64,000 bases of DNA from Antedon mediterranea (Eukaryota > Echinodermata > Crinoidea > Comatulida > Antedonidae), in NCBI RefSeq assembly GCF_964355755.1, contig NC_092670.1, positions 8,493,201-8,557,200 on the forward strand, in the 5' to 3' direction. The stretch's first letter is position 1, and each line of letters starts with the position of its first letter. The notes beneath the pieces are model-generated. The model saw only the letters and a list, made by a program, of their open reading frames with translations. It had not been told where the DNA came from and searched no databases. Below are positions 4,727-56,281 of this stretch, in pieces. A program made the position numbers and the translations under genes.

Positions 4727-4764
4727 GCCTGACCATGGAGTAATTCTTTACTCCATGGCCTGAC
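4727..4764. mobile_element. Tiny palindromic insertion with 7-bp target duplication (copy 1)
   Basis: A 24-bp core at 4734-4757 reads CATGGAGTAA, TTCT, TTACTCCATG: a perfect hairpin with 10-bp arms and a 4-nt loop. It lies between two perfect copies of GCCTGAC at 4727-4733 and 4758-4764. Core ends match copies at 5084-5110 and 55317-55345. Direct repeats of constant length around a palindrome are the signature of insertion. Mobility is inferred. Confidence 0.65.
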
Positions 4765-5076
4765 ATATAGTTAAATATCCTCATTATTGGCAACTGATGG
4801 GTACAATTTATTTACTGTATTAATAATTATACAATAAATATACAGAAACAAGGAAGTTTTGTGTTTAGTGCTTTTTTATGGTAGGCTTACAGTACAGTCA
4901 TATTTTATCTGAATATGTTTTCAGGTTGTGGATTAATTATATAATTATACAGTATTTAAGAAAATGTTTTCGTCATAGTGACAATTATTTAAATAGTTCT
5001 TTACATTTCAGCTATTCATTTTCATTTCAGGTTTTTTGTTGGTATCAAGATTTTCTATCTCGTTCTTCAATATGAG

Positions 5077-5117
5077 GTTGGACCATGGAGGTATAAAATA
5101 GACCTCCATGGTTGGAC
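5077..5117. mobile_element. Tiny palindromic insertion with 7-bp target duplication (copy 2)
   Basis: A 27-bp core at 5084-5110 has 9-bp arms CATGGAGGT and ACCTCCATG around a 9-nt loop. It lies between perfect GTTGGAC repeats at 5077-5083 and 5111-5117. The first seven bases match copy 1, 350 bp away, but the interior and the target repeat differ. The pair is therefore not a simple segmental duplication. Confidence 0.65.
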
Positions 5118-12660: not shown

Positions 12661-15600
12661 ATTACAGAATACAGCATGAAATATAAATGTGAACACTGTG
12701 GAGTTAAGTTGGAATTCAGTGACTTGAAAGAACATTTAGGATTACACAATCATTCTAAAGAAATAAAATGTGAGCTCTGTGAAGATACAATTGACAAGTG
12801 TAAGCTACATAATCAGACACCATATGAATGTGATCATGAGGAGGAAGGAAATCGGAATTTGAAAAAACATTTGAGCACAAACACAGGAGAGACACCATAT
12901 GAATGTGAACATGAGAAGGAAGGAAATAGGAATTTGAAAAAACATTTGAGCACAAACACAGGAGAGACACCATATGAATGTGAGCATGAGAAGGAAGGAA
13001 ATAGGAATTTGAAAAAACATTTGAGCACAAATACGGGAGAGACACCATATGAATGTGAGCATGAGAAGGAAGGAAATCGGAATTTGAAAAAACATTTGAG
13101 CACAAACACAGGAGAGACACCATATGAATGTGAGCATGAGAAGGAAGGAATTCGGAATTTGAAAAAACATTTGAGCACAAACACAGGAGAGACACCATAT
13201 GAATGTGAGCATGAGAAGGAAGGAATTCGGAATTTGAAAAAACATTTGAGCACAAACACAGGAGAGACACCATATGAATGTGAGCATGAGAAGGAAGGAA
13301 ATAGGAATTTGAAAAAACATTTGAGCACAAACACAGGAGAGACACCATATGAATGTGAACATGAGAAGGAAGGAAATTGGAATTTGAAAAAACATTTGAG
13401 CACAAATACGGGAGAGACACCATATGAATGTGAACATGAGAAGGAAGGAAATCGGAATTTGAAAAAACATTTGAGCACAAACACAGGAGAGACACCATAT
13501 GAATGTGAGCATGAGAAGGAAGGAATTCGGAATTTGAAAAAACATTTGAGCACAAACACAGGAGAGACACCATATGAATGTGAGCATGAGAAGGAAGGAA
13601 ATAGGAATTTGAAAAAACATTTGAGCACAAACACAGGAGAGACACCATATGAATGTGAACATGAGAAGGAAGGAAATTGGAATTTGAAAAAACATTTGAG
13701 CACAAACACAGGAGAGACACCATATGAATGTGAGCATGAGAAAGAAGGAAATAGGAATTTGAAAAAACATTTGAGCACAAAAACAGGAGAGACACCATAT
13801 GAATGTGAGCATGAGAAAGAAGGAAATCTGAATTTAAAAAAACATTTGAGCACAAACACAGGAGAGACACCATATGAATGTGAGCATGAGAAGGAAGGAA
13901 ATAGGAATTTGAAAAAACATTTGAGCACAAACACAGGAGAGACACCATATGAATGTGAGCATGAGAAGGAAGGAAATAGGAATTTGAAAAAACATTTGAG
14001 CACAAACACAGGAGAGACACCATATGAATGTGAGCATGAGAAGGAAGGAAATTGGATTTTGAAAACACATTTGAGCACAAAAACAGGAGAGACACCATAT
14101 GAATGTGAACATTGTGGGAAGAAATTTAAACAAAGCTGGAATTTGAAAATGCATTTGAGAAAACACACAAGAGCGACACCATATGAAAATTGTGGTATGA
14201 AATTTAATCAAAATTTAAAGATTCTATTGAGAAAATACACAGGAGAGACACCATATGATTGTGAACATGGTGGTAAGAAATTTAAACAAAATGGAAATTG
14301 GAAAATACATTTGAGAAAACACAAAAGAGAGGCACCATATGAATGTGAACATTGTGGAATGAAATTTACACGGAATGCTACTTTGTCAGCACATTTAAAA
14401 ACACATAACACACCTTATGAATGTGAACATTGTGGGAAGAAATTTAAATGGAAGCTTACTTTGGAAACACATTTGAGAACACACAAAAGAGAGGCATCAT
14501 ATGAATGTGAAAATTGTGGGAAGAAATTTAGAAAAAATGTAAATTTAAAAATGCATTTAAGAATACACACAAGAGAGACACCATATGAATGTGAACATTG
14601 TGGTAAGAAATTTAAACAATATGGAAATTTGAAAATGCATTTGAGAACACACACAATAGAGACACCATATGAACGTGAACATTGTGGTAAGAAATTTAAA
14701 CAAAGTGGAAGTTTGAAGATACATTTGAGAACACACACAGGAGAGACACCATATGAATGTCAACATTGTGGACAGAAATTTAAACAAAATGGAAATTTTA
14801 AAATGCATTTGAGAACACACACAGGAAAGACACCATATGAATGTCAACATTGTGGACAGAAATTTAAACAAAATGGAAATTTGAAAATGCATTTGAGAAC
14901 ACACACAGGAAAGACACCATATGAATGTGAACATTGTGGTAAAAAATTTAAACAAAATGAACATTTGAAGATACATTTGAGAACACAGGCAGGAGAGACA
15001 CCATATGAATGTGAACATTGGGGTATGAAATTTAAACAAAGTGGAAGTTTAAAGATACATTTGAGAACACACACAGGAGAGACACCATATGAATGTGAAC
15101 ATTGTGGTAAGAAATTTAAACAAAATGGACATTTGAAAATGCATTTGAGAACACACACAGGAGAGACACCATATGAATGTCAACATTGTGGACAGAAATT
15201 TAAACGAAATGAACATTTGAAAAGACATTTGAGAACACACACAGGAGAGACACCATATGAATGTGAACATTGTGGTAAGAAATTTAAACACAGTGGGGAC
15301 TTGAAAAAACATTTGAGAATACACACAGGAGAGGCACCATATGAATGTGAACATTGTGGTAAGAAATTTAAACAAAATGGGGTTTTGAAAAGACATTTGA
15401 GAACACACACAAGAAAGGCACCATATGAATGTGAACATTGTGGTAAGAAATTTAAACACAGTGGGGACTTGAAAAAACGTTTGAGAATACACACAGGAGA
15501 GGCACCATATGAATGTGAACATTGTGGTAAGAAATTTAAACAAAGTAGAAGTTTGAAGATACATTTGAGAACACACACAGGAGAGACACCATATGAATGT

Positions 15601-16773
15601 CAACATTGTGGACAGAAATTTAAAAACAATGGAAATTTGAATATACATTTGAGAATACACACAGGAGAGACACCATATGAATGTCAACATTGTGGAAAGA
15701 AATTTAAACAAAATGGAAATTTGAAAAAGCATTTGAGAATACACACAGGAGAGACACCATATGAATGTGAACATTGTGGTAAAAAATTTAAACAAAATGA
15801 ACATTTGAAGATACATTTGAGAACACACACAGGAGAGACACCATATGAATGTCAACATTGTGGACAGAAATTTAAAAACAATGGAAATTTGAATATACAT
15901 TTGAGAATACACACAGGAGAGACACCATATGAATGTGAACATTGTGGTAAAAAATTTAAACAAAATGAACATTTGAAGATACATTTGAGAACACACACAG
16001 GAGAGACACCATATGAATGTCAACATTGTGGACAGAAATTTAAACTAAGCTGGAATTTGAATATGCATTTGAGAACACACACAGGAGAGACACCATATGA
16101 ATGTCAACATTGTGGACAGAAATTTAAACAAAATGGAAATTTGAAAATTCATTTGAGAACACACACAGGAGAGACACCATATGAATGTGAACATTGTGGT
16201 AAGAAATTTAAACAAAGTGGAAGTTTGAAGATACATTTGAGAACACACACAGGAGAGACACCATATGAATGTGAACATTGTGGTAAGAAATTTAAACAAA
16301 GTGGAAGTTTGAAGATACATTTGAGAACACACACAGGAGAGACACCATATGAATGTGCACATTGTGGTAAGAAATTTAAACACAATGGGGACTTGAAAAG
16401 ACATTTGAGAATACACACAAGAGAGGCACCATATGAATGTGAACATTGTGGTAAGAAATTTAAACAAAGTGGAAGTTTGAAGATACATTTGAGAACACAC
16501 ACAGGAGAGACACCATATGAATGTGCACATTGTGGTAAGAAATTTAAACACAATGGGGACTTGAAAAGACATTTGAGAATACACACAAGAGAGACACCAT
16601 ATGAATGTGAACATTGTGGTAAGAAATTTAAACAAAATGGGGTTTTGAAAAGACATTTGAGAACACACACTAGAAAGGCACCATATGAATGTGAACATTG
16701 TGGAACGAAATTTACACGGAATGCTACTTTGAATGCACATTTAAAAACACATAACACACCTTATGAAATTTAA
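12661..16773 (+). CDS. C2H2 zinc-finger protein with a 17-unit degenerate finger array (1365 aa, start 12676)
   Basis: Probable sequence-specific DNA-binding nuclear protein. The exon follows an acceptor (TTTTCTTTCAG) ending at 12660. ATG at 12676 matches the conserved start MK[YC]KCEHCG of the paralogue at 22016. Residues 1-47 hold an N-terminal finger-like module. Residues 48-472 are 17 copies of a 25-aa unit, TPYECEHEKEG..NLKKHLSTNTGE, with only one Cys and one His. Residues 473-1360 are 32 finger repeats on the [15 protein letters not shown] plan, most with all four ligands. Ligands are lost in repeats 2, 3, 8, 11, 12 and 17 (for example CEHWG at 12, LRTQ at 11). No KRAB, SCAN or BTB domain is visible. 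DNA target unknown. The stop follows HNTPYEI, and decayed finger sequence continues downstream, so the gene may once have been longer. Confidence 0.8.
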   Translation: MTEYSMKYKCEHCGVKLEFSDLKEHLGLHNHSKEIKCELCEDTIDKCKLHNQTPYECDHEEEGNRNLKKHLSTNTGETPYECEHEKEGNRNLKKHLSTNTGETPYECEHEKEGNRNLKKHLSTNTGETPYECEHEKEGNRNLKKHLSTNTGETPYECEHEKEGIRNLKKHLSTNTGETPYECEHEKEGIRNLKKHLSTNTGETPYECEHEKEGNRNLKKHLSTNTGETPYECEHEKEGNWNLKKHLSTNTGETPYECEHEKEGNRNLKKHLSTNTGETPYECEHEKEGIRNLKKHLSTNTGETPYECEHEKEGNRNLKKHLSTNTGETPYECEHEKEGNWNLKKHLSTNTGETPYECEHEKEGNRNLKKHLSTKTGETPYECEHEKEGNLNLKKHLSTNTGETPYECEHEKEGNRNLKKHLSTNTGETPYECEHEKEGNRNLKKHLSTNTGETPYECEHEKEGNWILKTHLSTKTGETPYECEHCGKKFKQSWNLKMHLRKHTRATPYENCGMKFNQNLKILLRKYTGETPYDCEHGGKKFKQNGNWKIHLRKHKREAPYECEHCGMKFTRNATLSAHLKTHNTPYECEHCGKKFKWKLTLETHLRTHKREASYECENCGKKFRKNVNLKMHLRIHTRETPYECEHCGKKFKQYGNLKMHLRTHTIETPYEREHCGKKFKQSGSLKIHLRTHTGETPYECQHCGQKFKQNGNFKMHLRTHTGKTPYECQHCGQKFKQNGNLKMHLRTHTGKTPYECEHCGKKFKQNEHLKIHLRTQAGETPYECEHWGMKFKQSGSLKIHLRTHTGETPYECEHCGKKFKQNGHLKMHLRTHTGETPYECQHCGQKFKRNEHLKRHLRTHTGETPYECEHCGKKFKHSGDLKKHLRIHTGEAPYECEHCGKKFKQNGVLKRHLRTHTRKAPYECEHCGKKFKHSGDLKKRLRIHTGEAPYECEHCGKKFKQSRSLKIHLRTHTGETPYECQHCGQKFKNNGNLNIHLRIHTGETPYECQHCGKKFKQNGNLKKHLRIHTGETPYECEHCGKKFKQNEHLKIHLRTHTGETPYECQHCGQKFKNNGNLNIHLRIHTGETPYECEHCGKKFKQNEHLKIHLRTHTGETPYECQHCGQKFKLSWNLNMHLRTHTGETPYECQHCGQKFKQNGNLKIHLRTHTGETPYECEHCGKKFKQSGSLKIHLRTHTGETPYECEHCGKKFKQSGSLKIHLRTHTGETPYECAHCGKKFKHNGDLKRHLRIHTREAPYECEHCGKKFKQSGSLKIHLRTHTGETPYECAHCGKKFKHNGDLKRHLRIHTRETPYECEHCGKKFKQNGVLKRHLRTHTRKAPYECEHCGTKFTRNATLNAHLKTHNTPYEI
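12817..14091 (+). repeat. 17 x 75-bp coding tandem repeat (degenerate finger array)
   Basis: Seventeen exact-length 75-bp units (phase marker CCATAT at 12820, then every 75 bp to 14095) are nearly identical in DNA. Variation is largely confined to one codon pair: NR, IR, NW or NL. Units 6-9 and 10-13 repeat the order IR-NR-NW-NR, a 300-bp higher-order duplication. Each unit is 9 bp shorter than the 84-bp finger from which it evidently derives. Confidence 0.95.
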
Positions 16774-16784
16774 ATGGAAGCCAA

Positions 16785-18105
<1,321 letters not shown>

Positions 18106-18337: not shown

Positions 18338-19645
18338 TAATAAACCCTTTCTATGATTTATAATGTACAGTAGCCTTCCTATGTAATAAACCCTTTCTAT
18401 GATTTATAATGTACAGTAGCCTTCCTATGTAATAAACCCTTTCTATGATTTATAATGTACAGTAGCCTTCCTATATAATAAACCCTTTCTATGATTTATA
18501 TTGTACAGTAGCCTTCCTATGTAATAAACCCTTTCTATGATTTATAATGTACAGTAGCCTTCCTATGTAATAAACCCTTTCTATGATTTATAATGTACAG
18601 TAGCCTTCCTATGTAATAAACCCTTTCTATGATTTATAATGTACAGTAGCCTTCCTATGTAATAAACCCTTTCTATGATTTATAATGTACAGTAGCCTTC
18701 CTATGTAATAAACCCTTACTAAGATTTATAATGTACAGTAGCCTTCCTATGTAATAAAGCCTTTCTATGATTTATAATGTACAGTAGCCTTCCTATGTAA
18801 TAAACCCTTTCTATGATTTATAATGTACAGTAGCCTTCCTATGTAATAAACCCTTACTAAGATTTATAATGTACAGTAGCCTTCCTATGTAATAAAGCCT
18901 TTCTATGATTTATAATGTACAGTAGCCTTCCTATGTAATAAAGCCTTTCTATGATTTATAATGTACAGTAGCCTTCCTATGTAATAAACCCTTTCTATGA
19001 TTTATAATGTACAGTAGCCTTCCTATGTAATAAAGCCTTTCTATGATTTATAATGTACAGTAGCCTTCCTATGTAATAAACCCTTTCTATGATTTATAAT
19101 GTACAGTAGCCTTCCTATGTAATAAAGCCTTTCTATGATTTATAATGTACAGTAGCCTTCCTATGTAATAAAGCCTTTCTATGATTTATAATGTACAGTA
19201 GCCTTCCTATGTAATAAAGCCTTTCTATGATTTATAATGTACAGTAGCCTTCCTATGTAATAAAGCCTTTCTATGATTTATAATGTACAGTAGCCTTCCT
19301 ATGTAATAAAGCCTTTCTATGATTTATAATGTACAGTAGCCTTCCTATGTAATAAAGCCTTTCTATGATTTATAATGTACAGTAGCCTTCCTATGTAATA
19401 AAGCCTTTCTATGATTTATAATGTACAGTAGCCTTCCTATGTAATAAAGCCTTTCTATGATTTATAATGTACAGTAGCCTTCCTATGTAATAAAGCCTTT
19501 CTATGATTTATAATGTACAGTAGCCTTCCTATGTAATAAACCCTTTCTATGATTTATAATGTACAGTAGCCTTCCTATGTAATAAAGCCTTTCTATGATT
19601 TATAATGTACAGTAGCCTTCCTATGTAATAAAGCCTTTCTATGAT
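18338..19645 (+). repeat. 46-bp minisatellite, 28 copies, each with AATAAA
   Basis: The unit starts AATAAACCCTTTCTATGATT and continues TATAATGTACAGTAGCCTTC. GTACAGTAG recurs every 46 bp from 18365 to 19607, giving 28 copies plus a partial. The first copies read AAACCC and later copies mostly AAAGCC. A TTACTAAGA variant appears at about 18717 and again 138 bp (three units) later, showing multi-unit duplication. Each copy carries the canonical polyadenylation hexamer AATAAA on the plus strand, downstream of the zinc-finger gene. Confidence 0.95.
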
Positions 19646-20514
19646 TTTTATTTCAAAGTAAGAGTTTTCTTTTATAGTCGGTTCATTTTTGTAACAATAA
19701 AATCAAGTTTTATTCAAGGTACTGTATAATATACTATTTTCTTTGTGTATATTTGTAAACACATGGCGACAACAGGGGATAGATAGATACTATTTTGTAA
19801 TTTATATTTTTATGTTGAAGTTGAGGTATTGAGCAGAGGTACACTATAGGTTATGTTTTGGAAAAAAAAGTGTATACTGTAGTCATTAGAATTATAAAGT
19901 ACTGTAGTTATATTATAGATAACTGATTTTGCTGCAGTTTTGAAATCGATCAGAATATTCAAAACTTAATGTTGTTACGTGTTGTCAAAAGAATTGACAC
20001 AACAATGTAACACTCAATCCAAGGAGTAACAACTCTCTTCTAAATCCAATTATTAAAGTGGAATTTCAATACAATTCTGCATAATTGGCGTTATACAGTA
20101 TACTGTAAAGGCAGTGACGATCCGCTATTAGATCTCTAGATAAAGCCTTTCCCCACCCACTCTACACAATGGTAGAGTGGGTCGGTTATAATGTCTCGGG
20201 TCGTTACTCAACAAGTACTCTTACAGCATCTAAATAGATAATTCAATTTTCATAATTATACTCTCAACCAATCAAATACCGTAAATAAGTACTTGTCTGC
20301 CAGTCTATGATCCTATTTATTGCTGAGGAATGCCATTCAGTTGTATACAGTGGCAGCGAGAGAACGACTGAGGAAGACGATAATTATCATTGAGGTAGGT
20401 ACACGTTCCTAAACTAAAATATTGATTATGAGACAATCGGCGTGTGTGTTTCTTATAATTGTTAGCAGGATTACTCGAAAATGTATTGCCGATTTTCATA
20501 TGATTTTAAATTTT
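19646..20514. other. No gene seen
   Basis: AT-rich sequence. An 11-bp-arm hairpin (ACCCACTCTAC and its complement) lies at about 20155-20182, without direct repeats at its ends. The minus-strand frame at 20317-20499 shows no recognisable feature. Confidence 0.35.
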
Positions 20515-21964: not shown

Positions 21965-23347
21965 ATGAATGAATACGACTTCAACAAAGAAGAATTTAAC
22001 AGTGTAAATACCAACATGAAATGCAAATGTGAACACTGTGGATATGAATTTGAGTTCAGGGATTTAAAGGAACATTTAGGAATACACGTACATAGTAAAG
22101 AGTTTAAATGTGAAAACTCCGAGGATTTTTTGCTAAATGACCAAACACCATATTATGACTTTAAACATTGTAGGCCTAGAATTGAAGAAAGTAAACATTT
22201 TGGACTACCCATTGTCGAAAAAACTTCATATGAAATTGAACATTGTCGAAATGACGAAAGTGATAATTCAGGAAACACTGCCGTAGAAGCTTCGTATGAA
22301 TTAGAACATTGTCGAAATGAAGAAAATGAGAATTTGGGAAACACTTCTGAAGAAACATCGTATACTAAATCTGATGAAAATTGTGGAACTGAAGAAAGGG
22401 GTGATTTGGGAATTCACACTTTCGAAGAAACTTCGTTTGGTTGTGAAAATTGTGGGAAACAATTTAATAAAAGTGATGATTTAAAAAAACATTTTAAAAT
22501 TCACACAAGAGAGACACAACATGAATGTGAACATTGTGGGAAGACATTTAAACAGAATGCGAATTTGAAAAAGCATTTGAGAATACACACAGGAGAAGCA
22601 CCATTTGAATGTGAACACTGTGGGAAGAATTTTAAAGAAAGGGGGAATTTAAACAAGCATTTGCGGATGCATACAGGAGAGAAACCATATGATTGTGAAT
22701 ACTGTGGTAAGAAATTTAGATCTAGTGTAAATTTGACAAAACATTTGAGAGTACACACAGGAGAGAAGCCATATGAATGTGAACAGTGTCAAAGGAAATT
22801 TAAACACAGTGGGCAATTAAAAATACATTTTAGAACTCACACAGGGGAGACACCGTATGGATGTGAACATTGTGGAAAGAAATTTAAACAGAGAGTGATT
22901 TTGAGAGAACATTTGAGAATACACACAGGAAAGAAACCATATGAATGTATATTTTGCGCGAAGAACTTTAGAACTAGTAGTTATTTAAATATACATTTGA
23001 GATTACACACAGGATGCAAATCGTATGAATGTGAATATTGTTGACAGAAATTTATCACTAATGGGACATTAAAAAAACATTTGAGAATTCACACCGGAGA
23101 GACACCTTATGAATGTGAGCATTGTGGAAAGAAATTTAAACATAATGGATATTTAAAATTACATTTGAGAATACACACGGGAGAGAAACCATATAAATGT
23201 GAACAATGTGGAATACAATTTCAATGGGATAAAACCTTCAAAAGGCATCTAAAAACACACACACAGCTTAGAGACACTCTTTCAATCAATTACAAAATTA
23301 GAACTTACATATTTATTTTCACTCTGATTGTTAAAGCATTTGATTGA
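21965..23347 (+). CDS. C2H2 zinc-finger paralogue interrupted by an in-frame TGA
   Basis: The start is either M at 21965 ([11 protein letters not shown]), just after an acceptor-like TACATTTTTTAG, or M at 22016 (MKCKCEHCG), which aligns with the start of the gene at 12676. After the shared N-terminal module ([18 protein letters not shown]) come about four decayed finger-like repeats (SYE.EHCRN type). Canonical fingers follow (CENCGKQF onward; seven complete). The eighth reads CEYC, then TGA at 23042-23044 where a Gly codon is expected. The same frame continues through the rest of finger 8 and two more intact fingers to 23347. Either a recent nonsense allele, an assembly error or readthrough. 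Nuclear DNA-binding role inferred from the fold. Confidence 0.75.
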
Positions 23348-23980
23348 AAAGATGGAATTTCTCAATATAAAATATTGTGTTTTGGTAAAGATATGAGGCA
23401 CATATATTTTTTATTCTGTAGATGGATTCATGACAGAGAAATCAGTTTACTGAACATTTTTTTTAAGTTTTTCATATCTCCCTTTATTTTATGTTATTGT
23501 AAAGTGTATTGATTTTATGTATCGTATTCCTCGTTTTCGTCAGTCACAAAATAGTGTAATTATTATTTGTACAGTGTTACCGCTAGAATAGGCCTAAATA
23601 GTAACAATCGGTAATATTACGTGTGTTTACTCGCTTTTGAAATCTTTTCAATGTAAATTAAAGAGAAATAATATCAAATTGCACCATTCTAAAAATATTA
23701 ACAGTAAATATTCGTGCAACAACTTTTTAAACAAAATTAACTAGGGCAACTACATTGTAAATTATTGCATCTCTAAATTATTTATGGAGTGCTACGATAA
23801 CATGACTGATCTATTATATTTAAGTTATTGAAATGTTATTTCAATGTGATTTCATTATAACAGTGTTTACAATGTTATAGGCTTTGATTTATTTTTATAT
23901 TTGCTTTCATTTTAATTACTTTTATGTATGCAATCGTGTTTTCAATCAAATAGTTTATAGGCCAGTGTGTTTTGGAGTAT
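23348..23980. other. No gene seen; 3' flank of the second zinc-finger gene
   Basis: AT-rich, with no clear AATAAA close to the finger frame and no coding signal. Confidence 0.35.
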
Positions 23981-24494
23981 ATCGCAAAAATAATAGCAGT
24001 TTGTACAGTAGGTCAGTGGTGTAGGAAAGAGTGGTATCGCACAAAATAATAGCAGTTTGTACAGTAGGTCAGTGGTGTAGGAAAGAGTGGTATCGCACAA
24101 AATAATAGCAGTTTGTACAGTAGGTCAGTGGTGTAGGAAAGAGTGGTATCGCACAAAATAATAGCAGTTTGTACAGTAGGTCAGTGGTGTAGGAAAGAGT
24201 GGTATCGCACAAAATAATAGCAGTTTGTACAGTAGGTCAGTGGTGTAGGAAAGAGTGGTATCGCACAAAATAATAGCAGTTTGTACAGTAGGTCAGTGGT
24301 GTAGGAAAGAGTGGTATCGCACAAAATAATAGCAGTTTGTACAGTAGGTCAGTGGTGTAGGAAAGAGTGGTATCGCACAAAATAATAGCAGTTTGTACAG
24401 TAGGTCAGTGGTGTAGGAAAGAGTGGTATCGCACAAAATAATAGCAGTTTGTACAGTAGGTCAGTGGTGTAGGAAAGAGTGGTATCGCACAAAA
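23981..24494 (+). repeat. 56-bp minisatellite, 9 near-identical copies
   Basis: CAGTAGGTCAGTGGTGTAGG recurs at 24006 and every 56 bp to 24454. Copies are essentially identical apart from the first junction (ATCGCAAAAATAATAG against ATCGCACAAAATAATAG). Such homogeneity implies a very recent expansion. The unit shares the word GTACAGTAG with the 46-bp minisatellite downstream of the other zinc-finger gene. Confidence 0.95.
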
Positions 24495-54445: not shown

Positions 54446-56281
54446 TTTTAACTACTAATCTTTTCAATACACAATTTGTAAACAACTTTTGCATAGATAA
54501 TGATCAGCATTGTGATTTGGATACAATAGATTGTCTTACCAACTTTGAATGTGAACCCTTTGTGATGCCTGAGGTATTTTATGCCCTCTCACAGTTAAAT
54601 GTATCCAAATCACCAGGACCTGATTGTTTGCTTCCAGTATTCTTAAAGTCATGTAAGGCACAATTGGCTAATGTTTCACCGGTGAATGTTTTATGTACAT
54701 TCTTTAATTTAACTGTACAAAAAGGTATTTTACCAAAACAATGGAAGGATGCAAATGTTGTACCTATTTTCAAAAGAAATGGAAAACCCAAAGACGAAAT
54801 GAAAAGCTATCGTCCAGTGTCTTTAACTCCCATAATTTGTAAGATTATTGAGATATTTCTTTGCTATCGTTTAAGGGAATATCTAGAATATAATAATATC
54901 CTTTCAGAAAATCAGTTTGGGTTTAGACAAATGTATAGTACTGAACTTTTACTTTCAAAGGTTTTTCATTCATGGGCACAGAGCTTAGAACTTAAAGGCT
55001 GTAAAAATATTGATATTATTTTTCTTGATTTTTCGTCTGCATTTGATAAGGTGTCTCATAAAAGATTAATTAAGAAACTTAATAACTGTGGCATTGGTGA
55101 GAACACTAATGCATGGATTACAGATTTTCTTTCAAATAGACACCAAATGGTTATTTACAGAGGAGAAAAGTCAGAGTGGGTAAATGTTACTTCAGGGGTA
55201 CCACAAGGGTCAGTTTTGGGCCCTCTTTTATTTTTGATTTACATAAGTGATATTGTAAATAATATTTCTTCTTCACTTTTTCAATTTGCTGATGATCACA
55301 CATTATCACGTCCTATCAGGGAAGAGTTAATTTAACTCTTCCCTGGTCCTATTTATAACAATAATGATTGTAAATTACTTCAAAAGGATTTAGATTCAAT
55401 TGCTAAATGGGCAAATGTAAACCAACTTCCCTTAAATCCTGTCAAATGCGCCGTAATGCATGTTACAAGATGTAAAGATATAGTTAACTGGGATTATACC
55501 ATAGAATCAGACAATATTCCTAAAGTTACAGAATTAAAATTTCTAGGTGTTTATGTAAATAGTTCGATGTCTTGTCATACACAAGTTAATTATGTATGTT
55601 GTAAAGCAAGCAGATTGCTTGGTTTTATTTCAAAATGTAGTAAAAATATGTCCTGGTTAGCTATGTTGAACTTATACAAAGCTCTATAACTTCCAGTGAT
55701 TACCTACTGTTGTTCAATGTGGGCACCATTTGAGAAATCACATACTAATAGAATAGAAAGTATACAAAGGAAAGCAACAAGGATAATAATGTTTAGAAAG
55801 GAAGGTTCCTGGGAAACCTCTTATTTTCATAGGTTGAAAGTGCTTGAATTATTATCTATTGATGACTTGTTTAAATTACATAGACTTTCATTAGGATTTA
55901 AGTTGTTGAAAGGTTACTGCCCCCATTCTTTCAATGAGTATATTAAAACTAGTGAAAGATGTCCGGGTAGGCTTTTACGTTGGAATTCGAAAGGCAATAC
56001 TTTTCATAATTCTGTATTTGTTTCCTTTCCTAGACTATGGGAGCAAATACCAAATGACATAAAAGATTCACAAAAAATTTCAATATTTAAGGCTGCTCTA
56101 ACAAAACACTATATTTCATGTTATGTATAGTTTATTTGTATTTTTCTTGTATATGGTTTTATCTTAACTGTTTGTATTGTATGGAGTGAGTGCAGAATCT
56201 GTTTGGGCTTTAGCCTATTTTCATTCCTGGTTATTTTTACATTGATGACCGAATAAATATTATTATTATTATAATTATTAT
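54446..56281 (+). mobile_element. 5'-truncated non-LTR retrotransposon inside the left foldback arm
   Basis: A 1836-bp insertion between direct repeats TATAACT (54439-54445 and 56282-56288), ending in GAATAAAT(ATT)n. One reading frame from 54517 to 56130 encodes an RT domain (SPGPDCLLPVFLK, KSYRPVSLTPIICKI, ENQFGFRQMYSTELLL, IIFLDFSSAFDKVSHKRL, TSGVPQGSVLGPLLFLIY, FADD) and the post-RT region (TELKFLGVYVNSSM, VITYCCSMWAP, IQRKATRIIM, PRLWEQIPNDIK). The endonuclease domain is missing. Two in-frame stops interrupt it: TAA at 55333 inside a tiny palindromic insertion, and TAA at 55687. CR1/Jockey-like group by motifs; the clade was not resolved. Confidence 0.85.
55310..55352. mobile_element. Tiny palindromic insertion with 7-bp target duplication (copy 3), in the LINE RT gene
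   Basis: The 29-bp core (55317-55345) has 14-bp arms CAGGGAAGAGTTAA and TTAACTCTTCCCTG around a single T. It lies between perfect GTCCTAT repeats (55310-55316 and 55346-55352). Core plus one repeat is 36 bp, so the LINE frame resumes in phase after it, but the insert brings a TAA stop. This is the clearest evidence that the palindrome entered an existing sequence. Confidence 0.75.

Follow-up and report, generated by a model that had tools for sequence, protein, structure and literature searches.

The closest described counterparts of the short palindromes reported here belong to the P superfamily of DNA transposons. Excision of the Drosophila P element produces 3′ tails of 17 nt, CATGATGAAATAACATA (PMC2895639), and the TIR of this element continues with AGGTGG after nucleotide 17 (PMC11368186). 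Repair junctions of Drosophila P{wa} have 17-nt arms, AT/TA microhomology, truncated arms and short, partly templated inserts, and they keep the target duplications (PMC2895639 Table 1). These junctions depend partly on polymerase theta (PMC2895639). Galileo, another member of the superfamily, produces 7-bp duplications and a few of 8 bp at the palindromic target GTANTAC (PMC4168063).

The DNA analyzed here is a stretch of 64,000 nucleotides, hereafter the window. It contains three palindromes, each located between perfect 7-bp direct repeats, as had been claimed in the earlier note. Palindrome 1 (4727-4764) reads GCCTGAC-CATGGAGTAATTCTTTACTCCATG-GCCTGAC, with target duplications at 4727..4733 and 4758..4764 and a 24-bp core at 4734..4757. 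Palindrome 2 (5077-5117) reads GTTGGAC-CATGGAGGTATAAAATAGACCTCCATG-GTTGGAC, with duplications at 5077..5083 and 5111..5117 and a 27-bp core at 5084..5110. Palindrome 3 (55310-55352) reads GTCCTAT-CAGGGAAGAGTTAATTTAACTCTTCCCTG-GTCCTAT, with duplications at 55310..55316 and 55346..55352 and a 29-bp core at 55317..55345. These structures were read directly from the sequence, and the duplications, all given on the + strand, were recovered by a scan for CANRG-ended palindromes of 16-60 bp with a flush 7- or 8-bp repeat (at most one mismatch in the repeat). Exactly these three are found in the whole window, a hairpin-first scan is concordant, and the same scan on 20 first-order (dinucleotide) resamplings yields a mean of 0.0.

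Other repeated sequences were observed in the window. Arrays of an 84-bp unit, judged by eye to encode C2H2 zinc fingers, are present at 12815-17020 (more than 20 units) and at 22442-23213. Two very homogeneous tandem arrays lie at 18338-19647 (46-bp unit, 28.5 copies, 98%) and 23980-24494 (56-bp unit, 9.2 copies, 99%).

The simplest explanation for each of the three palindromes is that it is the repaired donor site of an excised P-superfamily DNA transposon, and not a tiny transposon. As judged from the sequence of one genome, we place the probability of this reading at about 0.95. We favor it for three reasons: The palindrome centers vary, but each arm reproduces the start of one TIR; scars with a single arm exist; and the same genome harbors full elements that combine these TIRs with 7-bp duplications and with genes for a P-type transposase. 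The suggestion that the palindromes represent an undescribed system is accordingly not upheld, since they are best read as scars of elements whose superfamily is known.

The genome searched, which contains the window, is a eukaryotic assembly of 354 Mb in 18 contigs. The pattern CATGGAG-N(0-30)-CTCCATG occurs 2,521 times, versus 12 for the reversed control, and CAGGGAAGAGTTAA occurs at 972 places (473+499), versus 0 in the control. Several scars lie inside dispersed repeats and have been copied along with them, so these counts overstate the number of independent events. On the reading we favor, this genome contains thousands of P-type excision scars. In some places scars are nested or in tandem on one target sequence (GTATAAT, GTTTGAC; L142:27-270 and L002:1500-1575), which indicates that a target has been reused.

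Direct repeats are retained by the further copies, as a product of transposition should retain them. An exact 7-bp repeat lies flush with the core in 39 of the 57 distinct palindromes whose flanks were compared; when flanks are re-paired at random between palindromes, the mean is 0.9 and the maximum 6. Repeat length does not vary freely. Sorted by their longest flush direct repeat, the 57 copies fall at 7 bp (38), 8-9 bp (four) and 0-1 bp (15), and none falls at 2-6 bp. A clean 7-bp repeat is absent from 18 scars, about 10 of which have one or two mismatches or an 8-bp repeat. When symmetrized, the duplicated target derived from the palindrome flanks is GTTNAAC. The earlier note attributed the 7-bp duplications and common ends to a transposition mechanism and set the duplications apart from the TA and TTAA of the MITEs, and both parts of this proposal are borne out.

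The anatomy of the scars was examined by using the matches listed for each search (about 100 per search). In a given family, every arm is a shortened form of a single TIR sequence, and the center differs from copy to copy. A MITE or tiny transposon is expected to have a homogeneous interior, but 41 distinct cores are seen in 80 scars of family F1 and 38 in 67 scars of family F2 among these matches (for F2, a core recurring within a dispersed repeat was counted once). All full copies have the inner part of the TIR, but no tabulated scar does. Most of the 147 junctions tabulated are blunt or overlap by 1-3 nt, and the others carry inserts of 1-21 nt, some of which repeat arm sequence (e.g., CATGGAGTAAAGAATAAGAATAAGAATATTCTTTACTCCATG). 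One scar, L100, reads GTTGAAT-CATGGAGGTATAAAAATA-GTTGAAT. Because it retains a single arm, it could not have moved to its site as a transposon, whereas an excision scar may have this appearance.

The arms of palindromes 1 and 2 match the TIRs of elements that carry a P-type transposase, and we therefore read these palindromes as scars of families F1 and F2, respectively. Both target duplications are kept, the element body is gone, and partial TIRs of a known element are joined. The arms of palindrome 1 are prefixes of the F1 TIR, CATGGAGTAAAGAATAAGAGGAGACACAACT. Its core, the probable F1 footprint, consists of a 10-nt arm on the + strand and a 15-nt arm on the − strand that overlap by 1 nt; listed on the minus strand, the palindrome is CATGGAGTAAAGAATTACTCCATG. 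The core of palindrome 2, the probable F2 footprint, joins the + strand arm CATGGAGGTATAAAATAGA to CCTCCATG. This + strand arm equals nucleotides 1-20 of the F2 TIR minus one A of the A5 run.

Complete copies of F1 are recognizable by their facing ends. A 17-nt F1 arm forms at least 10 facing pairs among the matches listed: The ends are separated by 2.2-2.9 kb in nine pairs and by 12.7 kb in one. An eleventh pair, 242 bp apart on contig C3, was rejected as an element since it represents nested scars (L142). In all five paired-end copies examined, the target duplication is an exact 7 bp, and the same 31-bp TIR, CATGGAGTAAAGAATAAGAGGAG(A/G)CACAACT, is present. The long copy (C5:14656949-14669633) encloses a transposase, L023, at C5:14660536, whose ORF matches RNaseH_N (PF21787, 7.9e-25) and the P-type HTH (PF12017). 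A second copy of this transposase (L032) is 96% identical and has an F1 end (L135) ∼2.7 kb away.

For F2, the arm was lengthened to 21 nt. Among its 14 exact matches, two lie face to face on C11. They delimit an element of 6,324 bp (C11:13871856-13878179), whose 32-bp TIR, CATGGAGGTATAAAAATAGAAGGAGAGAGCTC, and 7-bp duplication, GATACCG, are both exact. This element encloses L024, one of 35 P-type transposase matches in the genome. Its coding pieces match TNP-like_RNaseH_N (PF21787, 4.9e-24), the GTP-binding domain (PF21788, 2.4e-4, below the curated cut-off for that family) and RNaseH_C (PF21789, 1.1e-5). In the PDB, the F2 protein has a single convincing match, the Drosophila P transposase (6p5a, 6e-5), to which its FDEMKV motif aligns. 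On the strand opposite the transposase, the F2 element also has a PHD-finger ORF (L117:295-657, +) and a 342-aa ORF without a Pfam match (L117:1080-2108, +).

Features expected of the P superfamily are found in these source elements. The TIRs are close to 31 bp and have CANRG-type ends (32 bp in F2 and 31 bp in F1, both CATGG), and the transposases of both sources have an RNase H core, with the GTP-binding insertion domain matched in the F2 exons. Duplications of 7 or 8 bp are likewise expected, and all six complete paired-end copies checked (five F1 and one F2) have exact 7-bp duplications; among the scars, 39 of 57 are exact at 7 bp and some have 8 bp.

Several other candidates were set aside. 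The transposase family comprising L025, L027, L028, L031 and L035 was rejected as a source because its end, CAAAGATCTTATAATC (one end mapped), marks a different P-type family. A palindrome at L064:911, CAAAGATTGTATAGCGGCGCTATACAATCTTTG, with the 7-bp repeat CTGTCTG, may be a scar of a family related to this one. L063 and L118 resembled short but complete elements; instead of direct repeats, however, the two flanks of each are inverted copies of one another. They were therefore considered inverted duplications and left out of the element count. These large duplications (L118:1-576, L063:1400-2000), with a transposon end plus flank on both sides, could be aberrant repair products or assembly artefacts. 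Finally, a 407-bp "element" with F4 ends (L034) looked like a MITE with 5S-like sequence. Its interior (nucleotides ∼19-374), however, is an abundant SINE-like repeat that occurs widely without those ends (1,692 candidates in the genome), and we therefore read it as a SINE inserted into a scar. In this scar (L034:2578-2984; target duplication TTATTAT, arms CATGGAGGAAATATACA), the head of the intervening repeat resembles 5S rRNA by eye.

The lengths of the arms provide an indirect view of where the donor was cut. Among the tabulated scars, no F1 arm extends beyond nucleotide 19 of the 31-nt TIR, and no F2 arm extends beyond nucleotide 21 of 32. Of the 14 exact F2 21-mers, eight stop at nucleotide 21, and the other six continue with GGAGAG and represent element ends. 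If a chance match at the next base is allowed for, the tails would be ∼18 nt for F1 (CATGGAGTAAAGAATAAG before AGGAG) and ∼20 nt for F2 (CATGGAGGTATAAAAATAGA before AGGAG), so that the cut divides the F1 TIR into CATGGAGTAAAGAATAAG and AGGAGACACAACT and the F2 TIR into CATGGAGGTATAAAAATAGA and AGGAGAGAGCTC. From arm ceilings at nucleotides 18-19 and 20-21, we infer that F1 and F2 transposases make a long staggered donor cut inside the TIR. Since the Drosophila P element is cut before AGGTGG, all three cuts, whether inferred or known, would lie directly before AGG(A/T)G.

A probable series of events can be proposed. The transposon would insert and duplicate 7 bp of its target, with a preference for GTTNAAC. 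Transposase would then excise it with a long stagger, such that ∼18 nt (F1) or ∼20 nt (F2) of each TIR remains on the flanks as 3′ tails, a strand polarity that is assumed by analogy with Drosophila P. These tails are not complementary and would be end-joined after variable trimming, often at 1-3 nt of shared sequence, with occasional short inserts, some repeating nearby arm sequence. The expected product is a duplication, a partial TIR, an inverted partial TIR and a second duplication. The same analogy suggests that repair proceeds by a polymerase-theta-like pathway.

Palindrome 3 offers evidence of a different type. It interrupts the reverse-transcriptase frame of a LINE, with two 14-nt arms (beginning CAGGGAAGAGTTAAATTAC) flanking one T, and the stop codon at 55335 lies inside the palindrome. 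When the flanks plus a single copy of the target were used as a query, 14 other LINE copies were found to be uninterrupted (93-99% identity, nearly all across the full 182 bp). In the window copy and in one on C8, the match extends over 218 bp, which corresponds to a 36-bp insert (29+7). This second LINE copy (C8:18038217-18038434) has apparently the same 36-bp insert as window positions 55317-55352, and the scar was therefore probably copied or duplicated after it formed. Scar-like anatomy, variable centers and empty LINE sites are known for family F6, but no complete F6 element (CAGGGAAGAG...) was found in the genome; what was detected there is limited to candidate single ends (L116, C8:8566154) and an inverted duplication (L063). 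Its source is consequently assigned by anatomy, and by this shared anatomy palindrome 3 is probably an F6 excision footprint.

Other explanations are far less probable. It is very unlikely that the palindromes were left by another cut-and-paste superfamily (hAT, Dada, Mutator) or by an unknown one. The failure to find a complete F6 source in the genome favors this possibility, as do the CAGGG ends of F6, which we take to resemble hAT ends. However, the F1 and F2 sources carry P-type transposases between their TIRs, and a scar of ∼20 nt per side fits a long P-type stagger. Also, the 7-bp duplications and GTTNAAC target resemble those of Galileo, a P-superfamily member (PMC4168063). Slightly less probable still is the proposal that these are internal-deletion remnants of interrupted gap repair, wherein synthesis from both ends is followed by end joining, rather than joined primary cut ends. 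Full elements do coexist with shorter derivatives (2.2-2.9-kb copies beside the 12.7-kb one), and a minority of scars have inserts of up to 21 nt. But this process predicts arms of any length, and in 147 of 147 tabulated junctions the arms stop at nucleotides 18-19 (F1) or 20-21 (F2).

We consider it even less probable that the palindromes are ultra-short non-autonomous transposons (24-45-bp MITEs) moved by a P-type or unknown transposase, although their high copy number, shared ends and target duplications are what such elements would exhibit. Some cores, such as CATGGAGGTATAAAAATATTTTTATACCTCCATG, even recur at unrelated sites, but these are the cores that end joining at a short stretch in common (TA) should produce. 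Moreover, centers are hypervariable, arms are truncated from one TIR, single-arm copies exist, full elements share these ends, and none of the tabulated scars retains the inner TIR of those elements. The earlier note was therefore correct regarding a transposition origin, but the view of the palindromes as transposing units fails on the varying centers, the prefix-like arms and the one-arm scar L100. Chance hairpins or template-switch mutations, for which an AT-rich genome is the sole argument, have a negligible probability: The pattern count is 2,521 versus 12 in the control, exact repeats number 39 of 57 versus 0.9 expected, and shuffled sequences give 0. We rejected them on the basis of the resampled-sequence scan and the flank re-pairing.

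Excision and end joining of P-type elements, the reading we prefer, implies that short interspersed palindromes resembling an undescribed mobile element are debris of P-type transposition. A repeat finder could easily call such scars MITEs. They can also break genes, as with the LINE reverse-transcriptase frame here. Because scars outlast the element, they would record past transposition, the second-strand cut site of the transposase and the end-joining habits of the host, in an organism without genetics.

The transposases also differ at their N termini. The THAP domain of Drosophila P, which we take to be a variable part of the superfamily and not its defining core, gives no hit here; in its place are matches to zf-AD (F2, 3.7e-7; L029, 2.4e-6) or, in F1, to the RAG1 importin-binding domain (RAG1_imp_bd, 5.4e-6, above the curated cut-off). 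The best PDB match of the F1 N terminus is a RAG1 chain, with a weak score (E 0.017). P-type transposases with a predicted N-terminal C4 zinc domain are encoded at L117:3482-5230 (−), L023:259-618 and L029:265-624. According to the mention of it in PMC8355894, N-RAG-TP is an Aplysia transposon made only of RAG1-N-like sequence. A link between P-type transposons and the RAG1 N terminus is possible from these similarities, and we regard it as a lead rather than a demonstrated relationship. Taken jointly, the observations could mean that this genome holds a natural archive of thousands of P-type scars far outnumbering elements, that no fixed 17-nt stagger applies across the P superfamily (F1 near nucleotide 18 and F2 near nucleotide 20, set by the inner AGG(A/T)G and not by distance from the end), and that the RAG1-N-like domain would place the donor of that part of RAG1 among P-type transposons. 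We would give this combined view an even chance of being correct.

Comparison with known systems distinguishes what is shared from what is not. Like MITEs, the palindromes have short inverted repeats and target duplications, but MITEs, in contrast to them, are mobile and homogeneous in their interiors. Stowaway-type elements also leave excision scars, which retain only short sequences from the element ends (PMC4561436). The Drosophila P element similarly has a 31-bp TIR starting with CATG and a transposase with an RNase H fold and a GTP-binding insertion (PMC7776569, 6p5a). It differs in its 8-bp duplication and 17-nt stagger (PMC7776569), whereas the transposases here have a zf-AD/RAG1-N-like N terminus, and the F2 element, unlike Drosophila P, also holds the PHD-finger ORF and the ORF lacking a Pfam match. 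Galileo shares 7-bp duplications with a few of 8 bp, and its target, GTANTAC, compares with GTTNAAC here (PMC4168063). However, it is an element of Drosophilidae, and its TIR sequences appear to be different.

The closest match is to Drosophila P scars, which likewise keep the duplication and have two inverted partial TIR arms, truncation, 2-nt microhomology, short inserts and a ceiling just before AGG (PMC2895639). Those scars have an 8-bp duplication and 17-nt arms, in contrast to 7 bp and ∼18 or ∼20 nt here, and they were induced in the laboratory, whereas thousands are fixed in this natural genome. We found no natural genome-wide collections of P-type scars in the open-access literature, which leaves most subscription journals outside. 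P-element scars from Drosophila laboratory work and the 7-bp duplications and GTANTAC target of Galileo are already known. The abundance of the scars, the families and the two stagger lengths appear to be new.
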